From contig NZ_JAOPXI010000135.1 of the NCBI RefSeq assembly GCF_025965215.1, positions 1 through 32,642 on the forward strand: DNA of 32,642 nt. The letters are read 5' to 3'. Made by a program: the position numbers and the translations under genes. Source of the stretch: Marmoricola sp. (GTDB lineage: Bacteria; Actinomycetota; Actinomycetes; Propionibacteriales; Nocardioidaceae). Positions 3 through 22,657 of this stretch are shown here, piece by piece (position 1 is the stretch's first letter; the number at the start of each line of letters is the position of its first letter). A model generated the notes under the pieces. That model did no database searches. It was not told where the DNA came from and saw only the letters and a list, made by a program, of their open reading frames with translations.

Positions 3-3000
3 ACCACCGACAAGGTCAGCTCGGTCAGCGCCGACGGCCAGACCTCGGACGTCTCGTGGTGGTCGCCGACGTACAAGAACGACGCCAAGGAGATCCTGGT
101 GCTGCCGCTCAGCGGAGCGCAGTTGACCCTGAACCGGGCGCTGTCCTCCGCGTCGACGCCGGCCGGTCCGCAGTTCAGCGCCACCACCACGCCATCGCTC
201 ACCTGCGCAGGGGGCACGATCACGGTGGCGGGCAACCTGAACACCGGCACCTCCGGTGTCCCGGTCACCGTCCACCTGGACGAGAGCCAGATCGACCCGG
301 GTCAGGCGGGCATCAGCGCCTCGACCACGACCGGTACCAACGGGGCCTACAGCGTCACGATCGCGACGCCGGGTGCCAGTGACGGTCTTCTCAAGGTCGG
401 CTCACGTGCCAACTGGGGCATCGAGGTCACCAGCGCAGCCACGACCGCGGTCGGTGCCAGCACCGTCGTCGTCACGCCGACCGACTGCAGCTCCATCGCG
501 TACACCGGTGCGACCAGCGCGCCGGTGGCAGGCTCGGGCACCGCCAGCGCCACGCTGACCGACCTGGCCGACCCGAACGGTGCCGGGGGCAAGGTCGTGA
601 CCTTCACCCTCGCTGGCGGAGCCACGGTCAGCGCCACCACCAACGCCGCCGGCGTCGCCACGGCGACGCTGCCGATGAACGGTCCCGTCCGGAACACCAC
701 CGTCTCAGCCTCGTACGCGGGCTCGCCCGGCCTCGCGGCAGCCAGCACCTCCTCGGCGTTCTCGGTCCGGGTCAACCCGACGACCACGTCGGTGGTGGCC
801 TCGCAGTCCTCGGTCACCATCAACGACCCGGTGACCTTCACCGCCAGCGTGACGCCGACCATCGGCAGCAACCCCGGCGGCGGGGTGCAGTTCCTCGTGG
901 ACGGCAACGCCTTCGGTGCGCCGGTCGGTTTGAACGCGTCCGGCTCCGCGACCAGTCCGGCGATCTCGACGCTGGGCCTGGGCACCCACACCGTGCAGGC
1001 CATCTACAACGGTGACGCGAACTTCGGTTCGAGCCCGTCGTCGGTCATCACCATCAAGGTGCACGTCCCGTTCCTGCCGATCACAGTCAGTGAGTCCATC
1101 ACCCCCTCGAGCAGCGTCGCCGGCCAGGCGGTGACCCTGTCCTCGCACGTGGGCACGACCTCGGGGTCTGGGCACCTGCCAGGAACCGTGACCTTCACCG
1201 AAGGCGGCAACGTCTTCGGTACCGCGCCGGTGGACTCCTCGGGCAACGCCTCGGTCGTCACCTCGTCGATCCCGGTCGGTGCGCACTCGATCGTCGCCAC
1301 CTACTCCGGTGACGACGAGTACAACGGCGGGTCGTCGGCGCCGGGCAACCTCAGCGTGGCCAAGGACGATGCCACCGTCGTCCTCAGCTCGTCGAACACC
1401 ACCCCGGTCTCGGGTGAGTCGGTCAACTTCACCGTCAACGTGGGAGCGGCAGCCCCTGGTTCGGGGACGCCGACCGGCACCGTCCAGCTCCTGATCGACG
1501 GTGCCGATTCCGGCTCGCCGGTCGCCCTGACCGGTGGCTCGGCCAGCTTCGACCCGGTGACCACGCTGCTCGCGGGCAACCACACGGTGTCGGTCGCGTA
1601 CAGCGGCGACAACAGCTTCAAGACCGGTGCCGACACCCGGGCCGAGACGGTCTCGGTGGCTGCCACCAAGACCGTGCTGACGGCAACCCCGTCGCCGGCC
1701 TCGGAGAACCAGCCGGTCACGATCAAGGCGAACGTCTCGGCGATCGCACCAGGTGGGGGTTCGCCGACCGGAACCGTGATCTTCTCCTCGGACGGCGGGG
1801 TCATCGGTGCCGGTTCGCTCAGCGGCGGGCAGGCCACCACCACGGTGACCGACCTGGCTCCCGGACCGCACTCGATCACGGCCAGCTACTCGGGTGATGC
1901 CGCCTACAGCGCGAGCAACGCTGCGCCGATCAGCCTGACGGTCATCGCCGGCGCGGCGGTCGTCGCGACCCACGCGAGCGTCACCTCGTCACAGAACCCG
2001 TCGACCTACGGCCAGCTGATCACGTTCAGCACCAAGGTCACCGCGGACGACGGGTCTGTGCCCTCGGGTTCGGTCCAGTTCGCGGTCGACGGCACCAACG
2101 TCGGCAGCCCGGTCGACGTCGGTCCCACCGGCGTCGCGCAGAGCCCGACCCTTGCCTCGCCAGAGCCAGGCGACCACACGGTCAGCGCGGCGTTCGTCGG
2201 AAACCCGGGGTACGGCAACACCGGTGACCAGCTCACCCAGACTGTCGCCGATGCCGACGTGAACGTCGCGCTGACGTCCTCGAACGCGTCGAGCACCTAC
2301 GGCCAGGCGGTCACCTTCCATGCGGTGATCTCCTCTCCGCAGGCCGGTACGGGTGACCCGAGCGGGTTCGTGCAGTTCCGGGTCGACGGTCACGCCCTCG
2401 GTGCCGCGGTCGCGCTCGCGGGTGGCACCGCGGACAGCGCTGCCACCTCGACCCTGGCGCCGGGCACCCACACGGTGACGGCGGTGTACTCGGGTGACGC
2501 GCACTTCGTCTCCGGGGTCCAGACGCTGACCCAGAACGTCGGCAAGATCGGCACCGGGACGACCCTCACGGTCGCACCCGGTACGACGACGTTCGGACAG
2601 GCTGCCCAGTTCACCGCCACGGTGACTCCGGCCAGCACCGCCCAGGGTGCTCCGACCGGAACGGTGACGTTCAAGGACGGCAGCACGACGCTCGCCACGG
2701 TCACCGTCGGCTCCTCGGGCACCAGCGGCACCGCGACCTTCACCACCAGCAGCCTCGGCGGCGGGACGCACCTGGTCACGGCGACGTACTCGGGCTCGGC
2801 GGTCTTCGGGGGCAGCACCTCGGCGGGCACCACGCTCACCGTGGCCAGACGGGCGACCACGGTGTCCGCGGACGCCGCGCTGATCAAGCTGCTGCCGGGC
2901 CTCGGCATTCCGCTGGGTCAGCTCCGGGCGACCGTCACCTCGGCCAGCGGACCGGTGGCCGGCGTCCCGGTGGTCTTCACGATCGGGACCGCCACGGTCT

Positions 3001-3149
3001 GCACGACCACGACAGACGGGTACGGCGTCGCGACCTGCAACGCGTTCTCCCAGCTGCTCAGCCTCACCCTGTTCAACGGCTACACGGCCACCTTCGCCGG
3101 GAATGCCGACTACGTCGGCTCCGCCCAGCAGGGGACCCTCATCAAGTGA
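3..3149 (+). CDS. Secreted Ig-like repeat protein, 5' truncated by window edge
   Basis: The frame is open from base 3 with no stop upstream, so the true start and any signal peptide lie outside the window; the GTG at 99 is only an internal codon. After a non-repetitive segment comes a Big_1-like domain (about 475-775). Seven repeats of roughly 95-100 residues follow, each with a 'VTFTA.V' strand, a 'G.VQF.VDG' strand and a closing 'HTV.A.YSGD..F' strand, as in bacterial Ig-like domain 3 (Big_3_5-type) repeats. The last about 100 residues form a different cap with a CX11C cysteine pair (VC...ATC). No LPXTG signal or C-terminal membrane helix is seen, so attachment, if any, is non-covalent or through the missing N-terminus. 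The likely role is as an extracellular stalk, adhesin or matrix protein, but the ligand is unknown. The downstream gene is a paralogue. Confidence 0.85.
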   Translation, partial: TTDKVSSVSADGQTSDVSWWSPTYKNDAKEILVLPLSGAQLTLNRALSSASTPAGPQFSATTTPSLTCAGGTITVAGNLNTGTSGVPVTVHLDESQIDPGQAGISASTTTGTNGAYSVTIATPGASDGLLKVGSRANWGIEVTSAATTAVGASTVVVTPTDCSSIAYTGATSAPVAGSGTASATLTDLADPNGAGGKVVTFTLAGGATVSATTNAAGVATATLPMNGPVRNTTVSASYAGSPGLAAASTSSAFSVRVNPTTTSVVASQSSVTINDPVTFTASVTPTIGSNPGGGVQFLVDGNAFGAPVGLNASGSATSPAISTLGLGTHTVQAIYNGDANFGSSPSSVITIKVHVPFLPITVSESITPSSSVAGQAVTLSSHVGTTSGSGHLPGTVTFTEGGNVFGTAPVDSSGNASVVTSSIPVGAHSIVATYSGDDEYNGGSSAPGNLSVAKDDATVVLSSSNTTPVSGESVNFTVNVGAAAPGSGTPTGTVQLLIDGADSGSPVALTGGSASFDPVTTLLAGNHTVSVAYSGDNSFKTGADTRAETVSVAATKTVLTATPSPASENQPVTIKANVSAIAPGGGSPTGTVIFSSDGGVIGAGSLSGGQATTTVTDLAPGPHSITASYSGDAAYSASNAAPISLTVIAGAAVVATHASVTSSQNPSTYGQLITFSTKVTADDGSVPSGSVQFAVDGTNVGSPVDVGPTGVAQSPTLASPEPGDHTVSAAFVGNPGYGNTGDQLTQTVADADVNVALTSSNASSTYGQAVTFHAVISSPQAGTGDPSGFVQFRVDGHALGAAVALAGGTADSAATSTLAPGTHTVTAVYSGDAHFVSGVQTLTQNVGKIGTGTTLTVAPGTTTFGQAAQFTATVTPASTAQGAPTGTVTFKDGSTTLATVTVGSSGTSGTATFTTSSLGGGTHLVTATYSGSAVFGGSTSAGTTLTVARRATTVSADAALIKLLPGLGIPLGQLRATVTSASGPVAGVPVVFTIGTATVCTTTTDGYGVATCNAFSQLLSLTLFNGYTATFAGNADYVGSAQQGTLIK

Positions 3150-3171: not shown

Positions 3172-3205
3172 CCCCTTCGGGGGTGCGATGCCAGGGATGC
3201 CCTGG
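3172..3205 (+). other. Two tandem hairpins in the gap between the Ig-repeat genes
   Basis: CCCC-TTCG-GGGG (3172-3183) and CCAGGG-ATG-CCCTGG (3191-3205) are perfect small stems in the 74-base gap. The second ends just before the purine-rich ribosome binding region (3206-3217) of the next gene. There is no T-run, so a classical terminator is not supported. They could be mRNA stabilising, partial-termination or translation-control elements. Confidence 0.4.
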
Positions 3206-3223
3206 AGAAGGAAAAGGCCCATC

Positions 3224-6200
3224 GTGCGCAGACTCACCGCGGTTGTTTCGGCCGCAGCTCTGACACTCGGTTTCACGGTCGCGTTCGCCACAGCGGCTGA
3301 CGCCACCATCACGTCTCCGCTCACCGGGGCTGTCGTCGCGGGCAATTTCACGATCCAGGACTCCGGCACCGGTGCGGACGGAACGTTGTGCGTCAACGGC
3401 ACCAAGCCGAACGTCACGTTGTCGCTGATCAACGCGGCGAATGTCACGGTGTTCACCCAGAACATCCAGTCGACCAGCGCGGTGACCAGCAACGTGATCG
3501 ACTCGCACTCCTTCCCGAACGGGACGTACACGGCCCGCGCGGCCGAGCAGAAGCGAACCGGTTTCATCGGTTGCTCGAACAGCACCACGACGGTGAACAA
3601 CACCATCACGATCCAGAACGTCACCAACATCGCGCTGTCGGCCGGTACGCCGGGCTCAGCGCCCCAGAACACCAACCTGGTCGTGTCGGCGACGCTGGTC
3701 GACCCGAACCTCGGCACCCAGGTGCTTCCGGGACGCTCCGTCTCCTTCACGCTGTCCGGCGGCACGACGGTCGTCGGTACCACCGACGCCAACGGCGTCG
3801 CCACGGCCACGCTGCCCATCGCCGGACCGCCGCGCCCCGGTGCCACGATCACGGCGTCGTTCGCCGCGACCGCCTTCTACACCGCGAGCTCGTCGGTCCG
3901 ATCGATCGACGTGACCCAGAACGCGACCGCGACGACGGTTGCGCAGCCGGCTGACGTCGTCCACGGCCAGGCGACCAGCTTCTCGGCCACCGTGGCCGCC
4001 ACCAACGGCACCGGAACCCCGACCGGGACCGTCCAGTTCAAGGTGGACGGCACCAACTTCGGCTCCGCGGTCACGCTCGTCGCGGGCGCCGCCTCCAGCG
4101 CCTCGACCTCCACCCTGAGCACGGGGTCGCACGCGATCACAGCGGTGTACAGCGGTGACCCGAACTTCTTCGGCAGCACGTCGGCCGCGAAGACCCAGCA
4201 GGTCAACAAGGCAGCGACCACCACCGGGCTGACCGACGCCCCCTCTCCGACGGTCAGCGGACAGGCGGTCGTGTTCACGGCGACCGTCGGTGTGACCGGT
4301 GCCGGCGCGGGTTCACCGACCGGTGCGGTGCAGTTCAACATCGACGGCCAGCCGTTCGGCACCGCCGTCCCGTTGAGCGGCAGCACAGCGACACTGAGCG
4401 TGAGCAACCTGTCGACGGGCAACCACAACGTCGTGGCCGTCTACAACGGCGACGGGGACTTCTCCTCGAGCTCGTCGGCGACGATCACCCACGGTGTCAA
4501 CAAGGCCGACTCCAACCTGAGCATGACGACCTCCGACGCCAGCGCGGTCGCGGGTGAGCCGCTGACGTTCACGGCGAACGTCACCGCCGTCGGTCCCGGG
4601 GTCGGTACGCCGAGCGGAACCGTCCAGTTCGCGGTCGACGGCGTCAACCTCGGTGCTCCGGTGCCGCTGGTCGGCGGCCAGGCAAGCTCGCCGGTCGCCC
4701 ACCTGGACGCCGGCTCACACCACGTGACGGCCAACTACGCCGGGGACGGCAACTTCGGCGGGTCCAACAACAGCCTGACCCAGGCCGTGATCGCCGCACA
4801 CACGACGACCACGGTGACGTCCTCGCCGAACCCATCGGTCTTCGGGCAGTCGGTCCAGGTCCACGCCGAGGTCACTCCAGTGGCCCCCGCGACGGGCAAC
4901 CCGATCGGTGCCGTGCAGTTCATCGTCGACGGGAACCCGGCCGGGGCATTCGCAGTTCTGGCCGGCGGCCAGGCGGACGCGACGCTGACAGGCCTGTCGG
5001 TGGGCGACCACACGATCACCGCCAAGTACCTGTCGGGTGACGAGAACTTCATCACCAGCACCTCGGCTCCGCTCACCCAGACGGTGAACAAGGCGTCGAC
5101 GACCACGTCCCTGGTCAGCAACGCCCCGAACTCGGTCTTCGGCCAGCCGGTGACGTTCACCGCGAGCGTCTCCGTGGTGGCTCCGGGTGCCGGTTCTCCG
5201 TCGGGCACGATCGTGTTCACCGACGGCGCGACCGTGATCGGTACCCAGCCGGTCAGCTCGTCCACCGGTGAGCAGGCATCGATCACGGTGTCCAACCTGA
5301 CCGTGGCGCAGCACGCCATCACCGCGACGTACAGCGGCGACGGCAACTTCAACCCGAGCAACGGCTCGGTGGTCCAGAAGGTCACCCGCGCGCTGACCTC
5401 GACGGTGGTCGCCTCCTCGGCGAACCCGGCCCAGAACGGCCAGGCCGTCCAGTTCACCGCCACGGTGTCGCCGGTCGCCCCCGGTGCCGGCAACCCGAGC
5501 GGCACCGTGCAGTTCACCGTCAACGGTGTGCCACTCGGTGGCGGGGCCACGATCGTGGACGGGGTGGCGACGAGCACCAGCTTCGCCTCCCTGACACCCG
5601 GCAAGTACACGGTCTCCGCGGCGTACAGCGGCGATGGCAACTTCGTGGCGAGCACTGGGGTCCTCGACGAGGGCACGGGCCAGACCATCACCCAGGGCTC
5701 GACGTCGATGACGGTCACGGCGGGCCCGAACCCGTCGGCGTACGGCGGAGCGGTCACGGTGACCTCGACGGTGACAGCGGTGGCCCCGGCCACGGGGAAG
5801 CCGACCGGTGTCGTCCAGATCTGGGAGGGCAGTGAGCTCCTTGGGGCGACCAGCCTGGCGCCGTCCTCGACGGCCGGCACCTCGGTGGCCACGTTCGTGA
5901 CCACCCACCTGAGCTCCGGGGCGCACGCCCTGCAGGCCGTGTACGTCGGGAACTACAACTTCACCGGTGCCACCGCCGCAACGTCGGAGACGGTCAGCCG
6001 TGCCCCGTCAGTGACGGGCATCGCCTCGTCGGTCAACCCGGCGGTCTACGGCGACCCGGTGACGTTCACCGCCACGGTCTCCTCCGCCGGTGCCACCCCG
6101 ACCGGGTCGGTCACCTTCAAGGAGGGCAGCACGGTGCTCGGCACCGCGACGCTGGCCACCACCGGTGGGAACCAGACGGCATCGGTGTCGGTGGCCGGCC

Positions 6201-6652
6201 TGCACGCAGGCACCCACAACGTCGTTGCGGTCTACGGCGGTGACACCTCGACCGCCGGCAGCACCTCGCCGGCGTTCAGCGAGACCGTCACGGCCGCTCC
6301 GGTGAACCTGTTCGCGGCCGACGTCAACAACCCGGCCGACCCGCTGCCGCCGAAGAACGGGTACATCCGGGCCCTGCTGACCGACCGCTTCGGGAACCCG
6401 CTCGCGGGACAGACGATCCGGTTCGACAGCACCGCGGGCCCGGCACGTCCCTCGAAGCACCTCTGTGACGCCGTCACCGACGCGAGCGGGATCGCGGAGT
6501 GCTCCGACACCGTGATCAGCATCGACCTCGGGCTGGCCCCGGGTGACCAGCTGCTCGACATCCACGGGACCTACGACGCGACCTTCGCGGGCACGGCTGA
6601 CTACCAGCCGGCAACCTCACGGGGTCACGAGTACGGCGACGGGACCGAGTAG
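3224..6652 (+). CDS. Secreted Ig-like repeat protein, paralogue of upstream gene
   Basis: I chose the GTG at 3224 because a purine-rich GAGAAGGAAAAGG stretch sits just upstream and the protein then opens as a clean signal peptide: MRRLT, a hydrophobic Ala/Val/Leu stretch, and a likely cut near ATA-ADA at residues 24-28. The frame is open back to a GTG at 3146, but that would add a non-signal-like proline-rich leader. The mature protein (1142 residues in all) has an N-terminal domain with two cysteines, a Big_1-like domain, eight Ig-like repeats of about 95-100 residues ('GQ.V.FTA.V', 'SGTVQF.VDG', 'AVYSGDGNF') and a C-terminal cap with a CX11C pair (LC...AEC) like that of the gene before it. 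No sortase signal or anchor is visible. It probably acts outside the cell in adhesion or matrix building; the ligand is unknown. The two genes lie 74 bases apart on one strand and may be co-transcribed. Confidence 0.85.
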   Translation: MRRLTAVVSAAALTLGFTVAFATAADATITSPLTGAVVAGNFTIQDSGTGADGTLCVNGTKPNVTLSLINAANVTVFTQNIQSTSAVTSNVIDSHSFPNGTYTARAAEQKRTGFIGCSNSTTTVNNTITIQNVTNIALSAGTPGSAPQNTNLVVSATLVDPNLGTQVLPGRSVSFTLSGGTTVVGTTDANGVATATLPIAGPPRPGATITASFAATAFYTASSSVRSIDVTQNATATTVAQPADVVHGQATSFSATVAATNGTGTPTGTVQFKVDGTNFGSAVTLVAGAASSASTSTLSTGSHAITAVYSGDPNFFGSTSAAKTQQVNKAATTTGLTDAPSPTVSGQAVVFTATVGVTGAGAGSPTGAVQFNIDGQPFGTAVPLSGSTATLSVSNLSTGNHNVVAVYNGDGDFSSSSSATITHGVNKADSNLSMTTSDASAVAGEPLTFTANVTAVGPGVGTPSGTVQFAVDGVNLGAPVPLVGGQASSPVAHLDAGSHHVTANYAGDGNFGGSNNSLTQAVIAAHTTTTVTSSPNPSVFGQSVQVHAEVTPVAPATGNPIGAVQFIVDGNPAGAFAVLAGGQADATLTGLSVGDHTITAKYLSGDENFITSTSAPLTQTVNKASTTTSLVSNAPNSVFGQPVTFTASVSVVAPGAGSPSGTIVFTDGATVIGTQPVSSSTGEQASITVSNLTVAQHAITATYSGDGNFNPSNGSVVQKVTRALTSTVVASSANPAQNGQAVQFTATVSPVAPGAGNPSGTVQFTVNGVPLGGGATIVDGVATSTSFASLTPGKYTVSAAYSGDGNFVASTGVLDEGTGQTITQGSTSMTVTAGPNPSAYGGAVTVTSTVTAVAPATGKPTGVVQIWEGSELLGATSLAPSSTAGTSVATFVTTHLSSGAHALQAVYVGNYNFTGATAATSETVSRAPSVTGIASSVNPAVYGDPVTFTATVSSAGATPTGSVTFKEGSTVLGTATLATTGGNQTASVSVAGLHAGTHNVVAVYGGDTSTAGSTSPAFSETVTAAPVNLFAADVNNPADPLPPKNGYIRALLTDRFGNPLAGQTIRFDSTAGPARPSKHLCDAVTDASGIAECSDTVISIDLGLAPGDQLLDIHGTYDATFAGTADYQPATSRGHEYGDGTE

Positions 6653-8218: not shown

Positions 8219-12589
<4,371 letters not shown>

Positions 12590-19750: not shown

Positions 19751-19759
19751 TGCTAGTCT
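19751..19759 (+). promoter_or_regulatory. Extended -10 promoter ahead of the cobalamin riboswitch
   Basis: TGCTAGTCT combines the TGn extension with a TAnnnT hexamer (19754-19759), 7 bases after the gatB stop. The predicted transcription start is near 19766, just before the riboswitch. No convincing -35 was found. Confidence 0.5.
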
Positions 19760-19765
19760 CAGCCC

Positions 19766-19890
19766 GTTCCTCGCTTTGAGGAGCTGCACCATCCGCCACG
19801 TCCGTGGTCGGGGAAAGCCGGTCGAATCCCGGCGCCGACCCGCAACCGTAGGTCGCATTCGTGCGACGAGTCGGAGCACCCGCCACGCGA
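19766..19890 (+). promoter_or_regulatory. Cobalamin (vitamin B12) riboswitch aptamer
   Basis: The 222-base leader between gatB and the next gene holds the hallmarks of the cobalamin riboswitch. GGGAAAGCCGGTCGAATCC (19811-19829) corresponds to the conserved GGGAA...GGTGcGAAtCC element, and the following GCCGACCCGCAACCGTA (19834-19850) to the conserved GCnGaCCCGCaAC core. A 6-bp hairpin with a TTCG loop (GTCGCA/TGCGAC, 19852-19867) comes next, then a B12-box-like AGTCGGAGCACCCGCC (19869-19884). Binding of adenosyl- or other cobalamin normally represses the downstream gene. Position and orientation tie it to the secreted toroid protein at 19966. The outer boundaries are approximate. Confidence 0.88.
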
Positions 19891-19920
19891 CGTCTTTGCA
19901 CACACGCTGTCGTGGAAAAC

Positions 19921-19943
19921 AGCGGTGGCATGCCGCCGCCGCT
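19921..19943 (+). promoter_or_regulatory. Hairpin in the presumed expression platform
   Basis: A 9-bp stem with one G-U pair (19921-19929 with 19935-19943, 5-base loop) lies between the aptamer and the GGAAGG ribosome binding site (19952-19957). The palindrome AGGGCCCT (19955-19962) overlaps that site. With no T-run, control is more likely at translation initiation than termination. Confidence 0.45.
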
Positions 19944-19965
19944 GAGCAGCCGGAAGGGCCCTCCC

Positions 19966-21591
19966 ATGTCACTCTTCACGCGCCGTCTCGGCGCCCTCGT
20001 AGCTACGTCGGCGCTCGCCGTCTCCGGGCTCGGGCTCGTCGCCGGTCCGGCCGGGGCTGTGGTCCCGACGCCGGCCGCCTCCGGTGCCAGCTGGCTCGCC
20101 GGCCAGCTCACCAGTGGGCTGATCCACAACGACCAGTACGGCTTCGACGACTACGGCCTGAGCATCGACACGGCCTTCGCCCTCGACGCGGTCGGCGGGG
20201 ACGTCTCTTCGATCGCCACCGCCTTGGCGCCGCACATCGCCGGTAGCTCGGGGTACACCGAGGCCGACGAGTACTCGTTCGCGAACCCGCCAGTGTTAGT
20301 CCAGCACGGGTACTACGCCGGCGCGACCGCAAAGGCGCTGGTCTTCGCCCAGCTCGCGGCCCAGGATCCGACGACGTACGGCGGGGTGAACCTGGTGCAG
20401 AACCTGGAGAACCGGGTCCTCGGTACCGGCGCCCAGACGGGTCGCATCGCCGATGACAGCTCCTACGGGGACTTCGCCAACACGATCGGCCAGGCGTACG
20501 CGGCCGAGGGTCTGGCTGCCGCCGGATCGACCAAGGCGAGCGAGGTCCTGACATACCTGCTGGGCCAGCAGTGCGCCGCGGGCTACTTCCGGCTCAACTT
20601 CTCGGACCCCGGTGCTGCCGTCCAGACCTGCGACGCCACCGGCGGGCCCGCCGATCCGGACGTCACGTCGACCGCGATCCTCGCCCTTCTTCCCCAGATC
20701 GACAGCAACGCCAAGGTCGCTCGCGCGATCGGCAAGGCCGAGGCCTGGCTGCTGGGCCAGCAGCACACCGACGGATCATTCAGCGGGGGCACCTCGACGA
20801 GCTCGCCGAACGCCAACAGCACCGGCCTGGCCGGCTGGGCGCTGGGCGATCTCGGTGACACCGGCGCGGCCAGCAACGCGGCGGTCTGGGTGCGCCAGCA
20901 CCAGGCCGACGAGCTGGCCGGATGCTCGAGCCACCTGTCCACCGAGACCGGCGCGATCGCTTACGACAACTCGGCCCTGGCGAACGGGCGGGGCGTCGGG
21001 ATCACCACAACCACCCAGGACCAGTGGCGTCGCGCCACCTCGCAGGCCCTCGCGGTGCTGCAGTGGGCTCCGACCGCGACCCCCGCCCTCGCTCTGAGCG
21101 GCCCCACGGGATACGTGGAGGCCGGGAAGACGGCCAGCTACCGCGTCTCGGGAGCCGTCCCGGGCCAGACCGTCTGCGTCTCCGGCATCGCTATCTCGGT
21201 TCCCGGGGCTGCCGGCTTCGTCGGTACGACGACGGTCCGGGTGACGATCCCGGCCGGTACGGCGACGCGGACCGTCTCGGTCACCGATGGCGTGTCGTCG
21301 ACGTCGGTGCAGACCAAGGCCCTCGGGGCTGCGATCCTGCACGTGACCCCGGCGAGGTTTCGGGTCACCCGCGGCACCCTGGTGAAGGCGACGGTCTCCG
21401 GCCTGGCCGCCGGGGAGAAGGTCACGCTCCGGTTCCGTGGGCGTGTCGTGGCCACCGGCGCTGCGACGAGCACCGGCAGATTCGTCCGCTTCGTCCGTGT
21501 CGGCCGGGTTCTCGGTCGGGCGACGCTGTCGGCCACCGGTCAGTTCGCGGACCTTCGCCGCGGAAGCGCGTTCATCCGCGTCGTCGTCTGA
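19966..21591 (+). CDS. Secreted alpha/alpha-toroid protein with Ig-like domains, under B12 riboswitch (candidate cobalamin-binding protein)
   Basis: ATG 19966 follows GGAAGG by 8 bases and begins a signal peptide (MSLFTRRLG, hydrophobic core, likely cut near AGA-VV at about residue 31); a GTG at 19861 lies inside the riboswitch and is rejected. Residues about 40-367 are helical repeats of the prenyltransferase/squalene-cyclase alpha-toroid type, with recurring WLAGQL (43), YLLGQQ (197) and WLLGQQHTDGSF (261) units. Two Ig-like beta domains follow (about 375-455 and 458-541); there is no anchor motif. Cys203, Cys222 and Cys320 lie in the toroid. Eukaryotic intrinsic factor and transcobalamin use the same alpha-toroid fold to hold B12, and repression by B12 fits a scavenging role, so extracellular cobalamin capture is the leading inference. 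No enzyme active-site motif such as DxDD was seen. It is monocistronic, closed by a terminator. Confidence 0.85.
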   Translation: MSLFTRRLGALVATSALAVSGLGLVAGPAGAVVPTPAASGASWLAGQLTSGLIHNDQYGFDDYGLSIDTAFALDAVGGDVSSIATALAPHIAGSSGYTEADEYSFANPPVLVQHGYYAGATAKALVFAQLAAQDPTTYGGVNLVQNLENRVLGTGAQTGRIADDSSYGDFANTIGQAYAAEGLAAAGSTKASEVLTYLLGQQCAAGYFRLNFSDPGAAVQTCDATGGPADPDVTSTAILALLPQIDSNAKVARAIGKAEAWLLGQQHTDGSFSGGTSTSSPNANSTGLAGWALGDLGDTGAASNAAVWVRQHQADELAGCSSHLSTETGAIAYDNSALANGRGVGITTTTQDQWRRATSQALAVLQWAPTATPALALSGPTGYVEAGKTASYRVSGAVPGQTVCVSGIAISVPGAAGFVGTTTVRVTIPAGTATRTVSVTDGVSSTSVQTKALGAAILHVTPARFRVTRGTLVKATVSGLAAGEKVTLRFRGRVVATGAATSTGRFVRFVRVGRVLGRATLSATGQFADLRRGSAFIRVVV

Positions 21592-21602
21592 CGACCCGGA
21601 CA

Positions 21603-21635
21603 CGAAGGGCCCCGGTCGCTGACCGGGGCCCTTCG
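21603..21635. terminator. Perfect 15-bp bidirectional terminator
   Basis: Arms 21603-21617 and 21621-21635 are exact reverse complements with a 3-base loop (gct). On the plus strand TCATT follows, and on the minus strand the stem comes directly after the stop of the hydrolase at 21636. It separates two convergent genes. Confidence 0.87.
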
Positions 21636-22565
21636 TCATTCCGGTGAGTCGACGCGGTCGAGCAGGTCGAGCAGAAGCTCGTGGACCTCGGCGGGCTTCT
21701 CCATGGCGATGAAGTGACTGCCGTTGAACTCGACGTACTCGCCACCGTCGATCCGCGTCGCGGCCGTGAGCATGTCGGCGGCTGACGCCAGGACGTCCCA
21801 GTGCCCGGCCACGAAGGTCGTCGGGACGGCGATGTCGCGCAGCGAGACCCGCACGTGCCGCGAGGTCTGGACCGCGAGGTGCATGTACCAGTCGATGGGG
21901 GTCTGCAGCATCTCGTGGACCGTGAGCGCGGTGAGCTCGGCGTCGGCCACGGGGAACATGAACCCGCTGTGACTCAGTACGGCGACCGTCTTCGGACCGA
22001 TCGGCAACTGCCGGAAGATCGGGCTGAGCGGACCGCCGAGCAGGCCCATCAGACGGGCTGCGTTGACCGTGATCGCGGCCCGGGCGAACCGCGGGATCCG
22101 CAGGGGAGCCAGCATGGAGGAGAAGGTCCCGCCGGGCACGCCTGCCACGGCGAAGAGGCCGGTGACACGATCGGGGTGCATGAATGCGAGCTCGAACGCC
22201 GTGTTCACGCCCATCGACCAGCCCATGACCACACAGGAGTCGAGTCCGGCGTCGTCTAGCACGGCCAGCGCGTCCTCAACGAAGGCATCGATCCCGACGT
22301 GGCCGGGGTCGACGGGGCGGCCCGAGCCGCCGGTGCCACGGTGGTTCCACGAGATCACGTGCACACCGCAGTCGGGGTCGAGCAGAGCCGGCCAGGCGTA
22401 CGGGTTGGTACCCAGGCCGTTGCACAGCAGCACGGTCGGGCCGGCGACGTCGTTGGTCCAGGCCTGCAGCTCGGTGCCGTCGCTCGCTGGGACCGTGTAG
22501 AAGCGGAGAGCGAGGCTGTCGTCGGCATCGTCGACGACGCGCAGGTCGACTGCGGATGCGGACAT
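21636..22565 (-). CDS. Alpha/beta hydrolase
   Basis: The 309-residue protein has a classic alpha/beta hydrolase core: LLCNGLGTNPYAW around the oxyanion hole (46-58), SWNHRGTGGS (72-81), nucleophile Ser117 in GWSMG, the likely acid in GHWDVLAS and the likely base in GSHFIA near the C-terminus. A cap region (about 150-215) of helices may define the substrate. It has no signal peptide. Family relatives include lipases, esterases, haloalkane dehalogenases and polyhydroxyalkanoate-related hydrolases, and I cannot choose among them. ATG 22565 is preferred over an in-frame start at 22604 because CAAACT lies exactly 6 bases upstream (leaderless geometry) and conserved-looking sequence begins there. 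Confidence 0.88.
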   Translation of the reverse strand: MSASAVDLRVVDDADDSLALRFYTVPASDGTELQAWTNDVAGPTVLLCNGLGTNPYAWPALLDPDCGVHVISWNHRGTGGSGRPVDPGHVGIDAFVEDALAVLDDAGLDSCVVMGWSMGVNTAFELAFMHPDRVTGLFAVAGVPGGTFSSMLAPLRIPRFARAAITVNAARLMGLLGGPLSPIFRQLPIGPKTVAVLSHSGFMFPVADAELTALTVHEMLQTPIDWYMHLAVQTSRHVRVSLRDIAVPTTFVAGHWDVLASAADMLTAATRIDGGEYVEFNGSHFIAMEKPAEVHELLLDLLDRVDSPE

Positions 22566-22657
22566 GGCCCGAGTTTGCCCCAGCCCCGCTGCGTAAGGGG
22601 GCATTCGTGGCTCAGATCACGAGCCGCGTCGTGGGTGGTCTCGGGTCCTGGGTGGGA

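Follow-up and report, generated by a model that had tools for sequence, protein, structure and literature searches.

The stretch of DNA analysed here, a 32,642-nucleotide contig of Marmoricola sp. (NCBI RefSeq assembly GCF_025965215.1, contig NZ_JAOPXI010000135.1; hereafter the window, contig C90 in our numbering), belongs to a 206-contig, 3.6 Mb genome of 94.8% completeness, and carries next to gatB a gene for a 541-amino-acid protein with an alpha-toroid domain and two immunoglobulin (Ig)-like domains. Between gatB and this gene lies a short leader RNA of the cobalamin-riboswitch type (Table 1). An initial annotation, made from the sequence alone, had proposed that the protein is secreted, controlled by B12 and acts as a bacterial counterpart of the animal B12 carriers, handing corrinoids to an importer encoded elsewhere. 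The domain layout is borne out by the AlphaFold2 (AF2) model of the whole protein, a helical toroid plus two Ig-like domains with a mean predicted local distance difference test score (pLDDT) of 91.8, and a signal peptide can be recognized by eye. Compared with its nearest named relative, from a metagenome-assembled Marmoricola (81% identity), the gene has a ratio of nonsynonymous to synonymous substitution rates (dN/dS) of 0.18, similar to the 0.20 of the neighbouring gatB, and is therefore under purifying selection. As first noted, no transporter or B12 gene is seen by eye beside it, and no neighbour in the window was labelled as one of the partner genes described below.

Table 1. Features of the toroid gene and its leader in the window.
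Feature	Position	Strand	Basis
Short cobalamin-riboswitch-type leader, including conserved downstream hairpin	19771..19928	+	Model R1 and RF00174 match below gathering score
Conserved aptamer core: P4 and CCCGCAACCGT box	19812..19849	+	Pattern search; near-invariant columns in alignment A7
Conserved CGCTG...CAGCG hairpin ahead of start codon	19905..19924	+	Alignment A7
Shine-Dalgarno-like GGAAGGG	19952..19958	+	Sequence
Secreted alpha-toroid protein, 541 aa	19966..21591	+	ATG at 19966, stop ends at 21591; AF2 mean pLDDT 91.8; order-wide matches; dN/dS
Signal peptide, residues 1 to ~31	19966..20058	+	By eye; low-confidence N-terminus in AF2 model
Alpha-toroid domain, residues ~32-372	20059..21081	+	Helix pairs in AF2 model; profile of 25 relatives
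Two Ig-like beta domains, residues ~373-541; accessory, in a minority of relatives	21082..21588	+	AF2; Foldseek matches to complement, Ig and fibronectin type III chains
Strong GC hairpin between convergent genes; terminator-like, no T-tract	21602..21636		Fold and sequence

To place the leader, we compared it with RF00174, the cobalamin family of Rfam, which matches the forward strand at 19788-19901 with 25.8 bits (E 1.1e-4); this is under the gathering score of 31.5, the curated detection threshold of the family, and an Rfam scan of the window returned 0 families at gathering score. We also built a covariance model, R1, from 52 homologous leaders, excluding the window as well as L066, a relative with 81% identity to it; of 71 leaders left after dereplication, the 19 that were not aligned include the most divergent forms and several long-loop ones. 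R1 matches the window leader with 128.9 bits (E 2.3e-30; these E-values are rough) and ranks it 1st of the 5 sites listed in its own genome, the 2nd being a leader on another contig, C5, with 89.8 bits, while the next sites score at most 35.9 bits and fall on other RF00174 sites. RNAalifold predicted 24 base pairs for the 52 leaders, and in 14 of these both partners vary while pairing is preserved. Nearly all of these covarying pairs lie outside the core, in helix columns 66-78/164-178 and 120-125/145-150, with one in P4. The invariance of the core is partly a product of sampling, because the R1 leaders were picked with the core pattern; the leader family as a whole nonetheless has a conserved core with covarying helices around it, and the cobalamin-type leader of the initial annotation holds up.

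The region between aptamer and start codon offers two competing folds, since the 3' arm of the conserved hairpin at 19905-19924 can alternatively pair downstream in a GC-rich stretch (19920-19944). The competing pairings at 19905-19944 are a possible expression platform that may serve the switching. By eye, several relatives carry GCGGGT in the corresponding stretch, complementary to ACCCGC in the aptamer, and the two motifs may form a candidate switching contact.

Of the 196 genomes searched in the order, 69 contain a match to the window protein, which in three is confined to the Ig-like part. To examine their surroundings, we used a first set of 20 neighbourhoods and 74 named loci, two sets that share species; 73 of the named loci were counted, no toroid gene having been called in L134. 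Genes were called with a simple caller based on GC content at third codon positions, which missed some (the toroid gene in L134, T in L097 and the ATPase in L179). The usual order is leader, toroid gene, a gene for what we term the beta protein, and the T component, double ATPase and S component of an energy-coupling factor (ECF) transporter. All four partners lie on one strand with the toroid gene in 55 of the 73 named loci and in 18/20 of the first set. Some partners are present in 11 of the remaining 18 named loci and none in 7, and several of these loci end at a contig edge. The toroid gene can also follow the ECF genes, as in L059, L060, L061, L138 and L139. In the Kribbella-type loci L054, L056 and L126, the toroid proteins reach 798-863 aa and, by eye, apparently hold two toroid domains, and a small additional beta-like gene lies on the opposite strand past the S gene.

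The leader is a regular part of this arrangement, with its core found upstream of a toroid gene in 72/73 named loci and 19/20 loci of the first set. Over all 94 loci, the core occurs in the 450 nt before, or in the first 60 nt of, 96 of the 113 toroid genes, as opposed to 12/872 genes of no assigned class and 0/327 beta, T, ATPase or S genes, an association that exceeds chance. Fifteen of the 17 toroid genes lacking the core sit in loci that hold a second toroid gene. Where toroid genes stand in tandem (L052, L078, L080, L093, L098, L101, L102, L104, L107 and L109), the short leader is missing from the first copy and sits between the two. Phylum-wide, the beta family was found in 40 of 198 genomes; in 20 loci drawn from those 40, R1 detected a leader in 17 at E < 1e-5 and in 19 at E <= 0.1, and a toroid gene was detected in 14 (E <= 0.01).

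Read by eye, the alignment suggests that the beta protein begins with a signal peptide, continues into a domain of ~120 residues in which cysteines and tryptophans are invariant, and ends in a C-terminal membrane anchor that follows a linker rich in Pro, Ser and Thr. We compared this family with DUF4430, the domain described at the C-terminus of transcobalamins (PMC4350170). An hhalign comparison with actinobacterial DUF4430 domains covers most of the domain and suggests modest homology (E 7.8e-5, probability 62%). Furthermore, one protein from the same order bridges the two families, matching DUF4430 at E 4.8e-4, under the cut-off, and the beta family at E 3.5e-10, the latter partly through its signal peptide. 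When the PDB was searched with a profile of the entire beta alignment, transcobalamin was not among the 11 matches, the best of which was due to the Pro/Ser-rich tail.

Toroid and beta domains also occur in a single chain. Five relatives in the first two sets are such fusions, with the domains in transcobalamin order in L051, L122 and L124 and in reversed order in L059 and L130; the phylum loci add L178 and also L193, whose toroid match is weak. The L051 fusion shares 55% identity with the neighbouring beta protein (114 residues) and 40% with the window toroid protein (426 columns). Alignment A5, in which C-terminal halves of toroids had been set against the beta part, was discarded, and A6 was used after test alignments. 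We modelled this natural fusion because the Foldseek search with the window model was dominated by the Ig-like part. Its predicted model has a mean pLDDT of 80.8, with high values in the toroid, and among 350,542 PDB chains its Foldseek ranks 1-11 are all transcobalamin, followed by squalene-hopene cyclase. The transcobalamin matches (E 2e-8 to 1e-6) extend over 468-488 alignment columns with TM-scores of 0.31-0.45 and root-mean-square deviations (rmsd) of 22-23 A. We take these values to mean that the predicted model does not fix the two domains relative to each other, and the matches thus support a transcobalamin-like pair of domains rather than the closed form.

These fusions and operons also bear on the Ig-like pair, which the initial annotation had taken as a replacement for the beta domain of the animal carriers. 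We rejected such a stand-in role: a profile built from 9 Ig-bearing toroid proteins places the pair in 33/113 toroid genes, and a beta gene accompanies 27 of these 33 on the same strand of the locus, the beta domain being encoded by a separate gene or, in some relatives, fused to the toroid. The Ig-like pair is probably best seen as an accessory, a spacer or a wall-binding element.

In the genome of the window, the partners of the usual operon are found on a different contig. C5 carries a cassette of leader, beta (252 aa), T, ATPase and S, flanked by genes that look by eye like homogentisate dioxygenase (hmgA) and DUF1697. Its ATPase matches cbiO (TIGR01166) over the cut-off, and its T component matches the CbiQ family of Pfam at E 0.0072, under the cut-off. 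Judged by this context, with the same short leader in front, the cassette is a good candidate for the importer that the initial annotation had placed elsewhere in the genome. The split is unlikely to be an accident of binning, because another genome, G153, which is in 6 contigs, has both loci, each in the corresponding setting. A toroid gene at the gat locus with no beta-ECF genes beside it is found in four cases (the window genome, G153, L066 and L068), and G193 and G061 have one complete operon there.

The cassette differs in descent from the operons of close relatives. In a phylogeny built from the joined T, ATPase and S sequences of 38 loci, the C5 and G153 cassettes group together (support 1.0) and join L135 (Phycicoccus) and L181, of the same class (support 1.0), at a distance from the remaining Nocardioidaceae operons. 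A further genome, G161, has a cassette of leader, beta, T, ATPase and S adjoining an hmgA-like gene (L206, 3637-8054). We rejected a shared history of all cassettes at the hmgA locus, as the G161 cassette clusters with L194 and not with L010 and L204. In the beta protein of L206, the domain is reduced to its second half, which follows the signal peptide. In the window lineage, the native beta-ECF genes may have been lost and replaced by a foreign cassette that brought its own leader, while the toroid gene would have stayed at the gatCAB locus.

From the homology and covariation of the leader, the toroid fold, the conserved linkage, the fusions with the transcobalamin-like domain pair of L051, the separate cassette and the purifying selection, we consider it likely that the window gene encodes the alpha-toroid half of a two-piece extracellular receptor for B12 (cobamide), whose partner beta protein and ECF importer would be those encoded on C5. 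When B12 is scarce, the leader would be permissive, if the direction of control is the expected repression by B12, and the toroid protein would be synthesized and exported. On the outer side of the membrane it would encounter the secreted, beta-grasp-type protein, held there by its flexible linker and C-terminal anchor; the two might then enclose a cobamide between them, in the manner of the two transcobalamin domains, and deliver it to the S component of the ECF transporter. The transcobalamin-like role first suggested for the toroid thus gains credibility from context and predicted fold, with the beta protein of C5 as its presumed counterpart.

Several observations weigh against this proposal. 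The window leader by itself stays below the Rfam gathering score, as do 10 of the 17 scanned homologue loci (among 19 scanned sources, comprising these 17, the C5 leader and the window's own locus L012, the score is reached by 8, namely 7 homologue loci and the C5 leader). At the level of the toroid, a search with the window protein alone against Pfam, NCBIfam and PDB sequences gave nothing significant, the sole Pfam row being TED (E 0.18) and SCO2321 of NCBIfam giving no match at E <= 1. In the PDB, the profile made from 25 relatives finds chains of squalene-hopene cyclase and of complement TED, all of them alpha-toroids, with terpene cyclases as the best matches and transcobalamin absent among the 43 matches listed. 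In the structural comparison proposed at the outset, the model shows an alpha-toroid, while its Foldseek matches, of which the Ig-like part accounts for most, include no transcobalamin in the best 50 of 1938. Pfam DUF4430 matches 0/19 beta proteins; of the 198 phylum genomes, 34 have DUF4430 and 40 the beta family, and only 4 have both. In the L051 model, the beta part is of low to moderate confidence (block means 45-77), and with rmsd values above 20 A the mutual placement of the two domains is therefore not predicted. The S component matches no solved chain and no characterised S component, and a cobamide is its presumed substrate. The different descent of the C5 cassette and of the toroid's local relatives means, therefore, that the pairing of toroid and C5 beta protein is not guaranteed, and G161 carries a beta-ECF cassette with no toroid match. 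Finally, the host has genes for B12 synthesis, and uptake therefore need not be essential; it may represent a saving rather than a need.

Some of these observations invite other explanations. A B12-type riboswitch might here govern the import of a different ligand, for instance cobalt, heme or a corrinoid precursor, as the uncharacterised S component and the sub-threshold CbiQ match of T would allow; cobalt transporter genes have also been reported under B12 riboswitches (PMC3766115). We regard this as unlikely, since the transcobalamin-like domain pair suits a corrinoid and the 2007 analysis of related systems also favours B12 or its precursors (PMC1796856). The toroid could instead act alone as a free extracellular cobamide binder (a store, a sponge or a shared carrier) with its Ig-like pair as a wall tether and the C5 cassette independent of it. 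The four solitary toroid genes, the other ancestry of the cassette and the toroid-less G161 cassette fit such a protein, but toroid and beta genes are adjacent at most loci and fused in some, the ligand of transcobalamin is described as sandwiched by both domains (PMC1796856), and the same leader type is kept at both loci of the window genome, making a lone binder rather improbable.

The split locus, together with an ECF cassette of other descent, could also mean that the toroid of the window lineage is a leftover that has lost its native beta-ECF partners. Against this stand an intact frame and leader, the purifying selection described above and the persistence of the split toroid in G153 and L066, and we hold decay of this kind to be very improbable. 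The resemblance to squalene-hopene cyclases, the closest solved sequences, and the match of Pfam SQHop_cyclase_C to 12/25 toroid relatives raise the further idea of a B12-controlled secreted enzyme, either terpene-cyclase-like or cobamide-modifying. The DxDD motif is catalytic in squalene-hopene and other type II terpene cyclases; it is absent from the window protein (searched as D.DD, with DPDV at residues 230-233), on which ground we rejected a terpene cyclase identity. Since the protein is, moreover, an exported one, most relatives examined have a transporter linked to it, and its fused relative L051 matches transcobalamin best, an enzyme of either kind seems hardly credible. A two-piece cobamide receptor that feeds an ECF importer remains the reading we prefer.

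The biosynthetic genes of the host lie on contig C172 (L008, L009) and comprise cobQ, cobU, cobT, cobBC, cobO, cobM, cobIJ, cobN and cobF, the matches of cobU and cobM being just under their cut-offs. This cluster has four RF00174-type sites, three of them over the cut-off. On contig C175, another RF00174 site (33.5 bits; L011, ~8679-9900) precedes genes for proteins of 75 and 286 aa that by eye resemble CbtB and CbtA of cobalt uptake. As for the remaining features of the window, the strong terminator initially placed after the toroid gene stands as a hairpin (z -8.0 for 21595-21645), which abuts the end of the convergent gene at 21636-22604, while the T-tract is missing. Two very long frames at 99-3149 and 3197-6652 (1016 and 1151 aa) have, by eye, the look of secreted, repeat-rich proteins.

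We are evenly divided on a broader proposal, in which Actinomycetota generally would possess an animal-type B12 carrier in the form of a two-gene surface receptor, a toroid and a tethered beta-grasp protein, feeding an ECF importer, and in which the window lineage would combine a resident toroid with a foreign cassette, the two kept in step only by matching riboswitches. If correct, this would be an ECF importer with a dedicated two-part extracellular receptor. A prediction made in 2007 now takes the tangible form of two proteins, which simple assays could examine by asking whether they bind B12 only jointly. Joint binding would reveal a route by which extracellular B12 is captured for ECF import. 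The two-piece and fused bacterial relatives could then be compared with intrinsic factor and transcobalamin, and a function would be suggested for SCO2321 and SCO2322, families that NCBIfam names only by locus. Moreover, the combination of a gat-locus toroid with a cassette of other descent would be a natural test of whether the halves are interchangeable.

That prediction is due to Burroughs et al. (2007), who grouped the C-terminal domain of transcobalamin with bacterial secreted domains, SLBB, described SLBB-toroid fusions in both orders as well as fusions to Ig folds, and predicted B12 scavenging from operons with CbiO- and CbiQ-like genes (PMC1796856). Because toroid-beta scavengers were thus already predicted, our finding is a split, riboswitch-linked variant and not a new kind of system, and the initial claim that no counterpart is known has to be narrowed to the two-gene, riboswitch-linked form. 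In the open-access literature we found no account of that form, of the riboswitch link, the spread in the phylum or the relocated cassette, and a later one may exist; nor did we find there a later test of the bacterial toroid-beta B12 prediction, PMC1796856 being the only account we found. The main text of that paper uses 'riboswitch' 0 times and 'actinobacter' once, for ComEA.

The systems of Burroughs et al. resemble the present one in their toroid, beta-grasp-type partner, CbiO- and CbiQ-like genes, Ig-fold fusions and proposed B12 scavenging. They differ in that two genes here take the place of one, the 19 beta proteins fall below DUF4430 detection and a riboswitch-type leader is present. 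The toroid-beta linkage is retained in the relatives, with the modest DUF4430 homology given above, whereas the CbiO- and CbiQ-like genes, neighbours of the toroid gene in most of the relatives examined, are found on C5, apart from the window toroid. In addition, the bacteria discussed in that study usually lack key B12-synthesis genes (PMC1796856), whereas the host of the window has genes for B12 synthesis.

Other known families are more distant. SCO2321 and SCO2322 of NCBIfam, whose descriptions name no function, are weak relatives, the toroid protein of L047 reaching 58.8 bits against a cut-off of 300 and the C5 beta protein 30.5 against 85. The leader shares with RF00174 the conserved core and helices, and in part of the family the gathering score, but is a short form that in the window scores below it. 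ECF-CbrT of Lactobacillus delbrueckii is likewise an ECF-type B12 importer; in the relevant portion of its description, CbrT itself is the high-affinity binder and no separate extracellular receptor is mentioned (PMC5997447). For the S family found here, no solved chain gave a sequence match. Compared with transcobalamin, intrinsic factor and haptocorrin, the window genome encodes the domains as separate proteins on different contigs, behind a riboswitch-type leader and together with an ECF transporter; the beta domain that transcobalamin has in the same chain is absent from the window protein, which has Ig-like domains instead, and the toroid profile lacks a significant transcobalamin sequence match among the 43 listed. 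What the bacterial proteins and the animal carriers share is the combination of an alpha-toroid with a beta domain, a two-domain fold seen in the model of the L051 fusion only, where transcobalamin provides the top 11 PDB matches.

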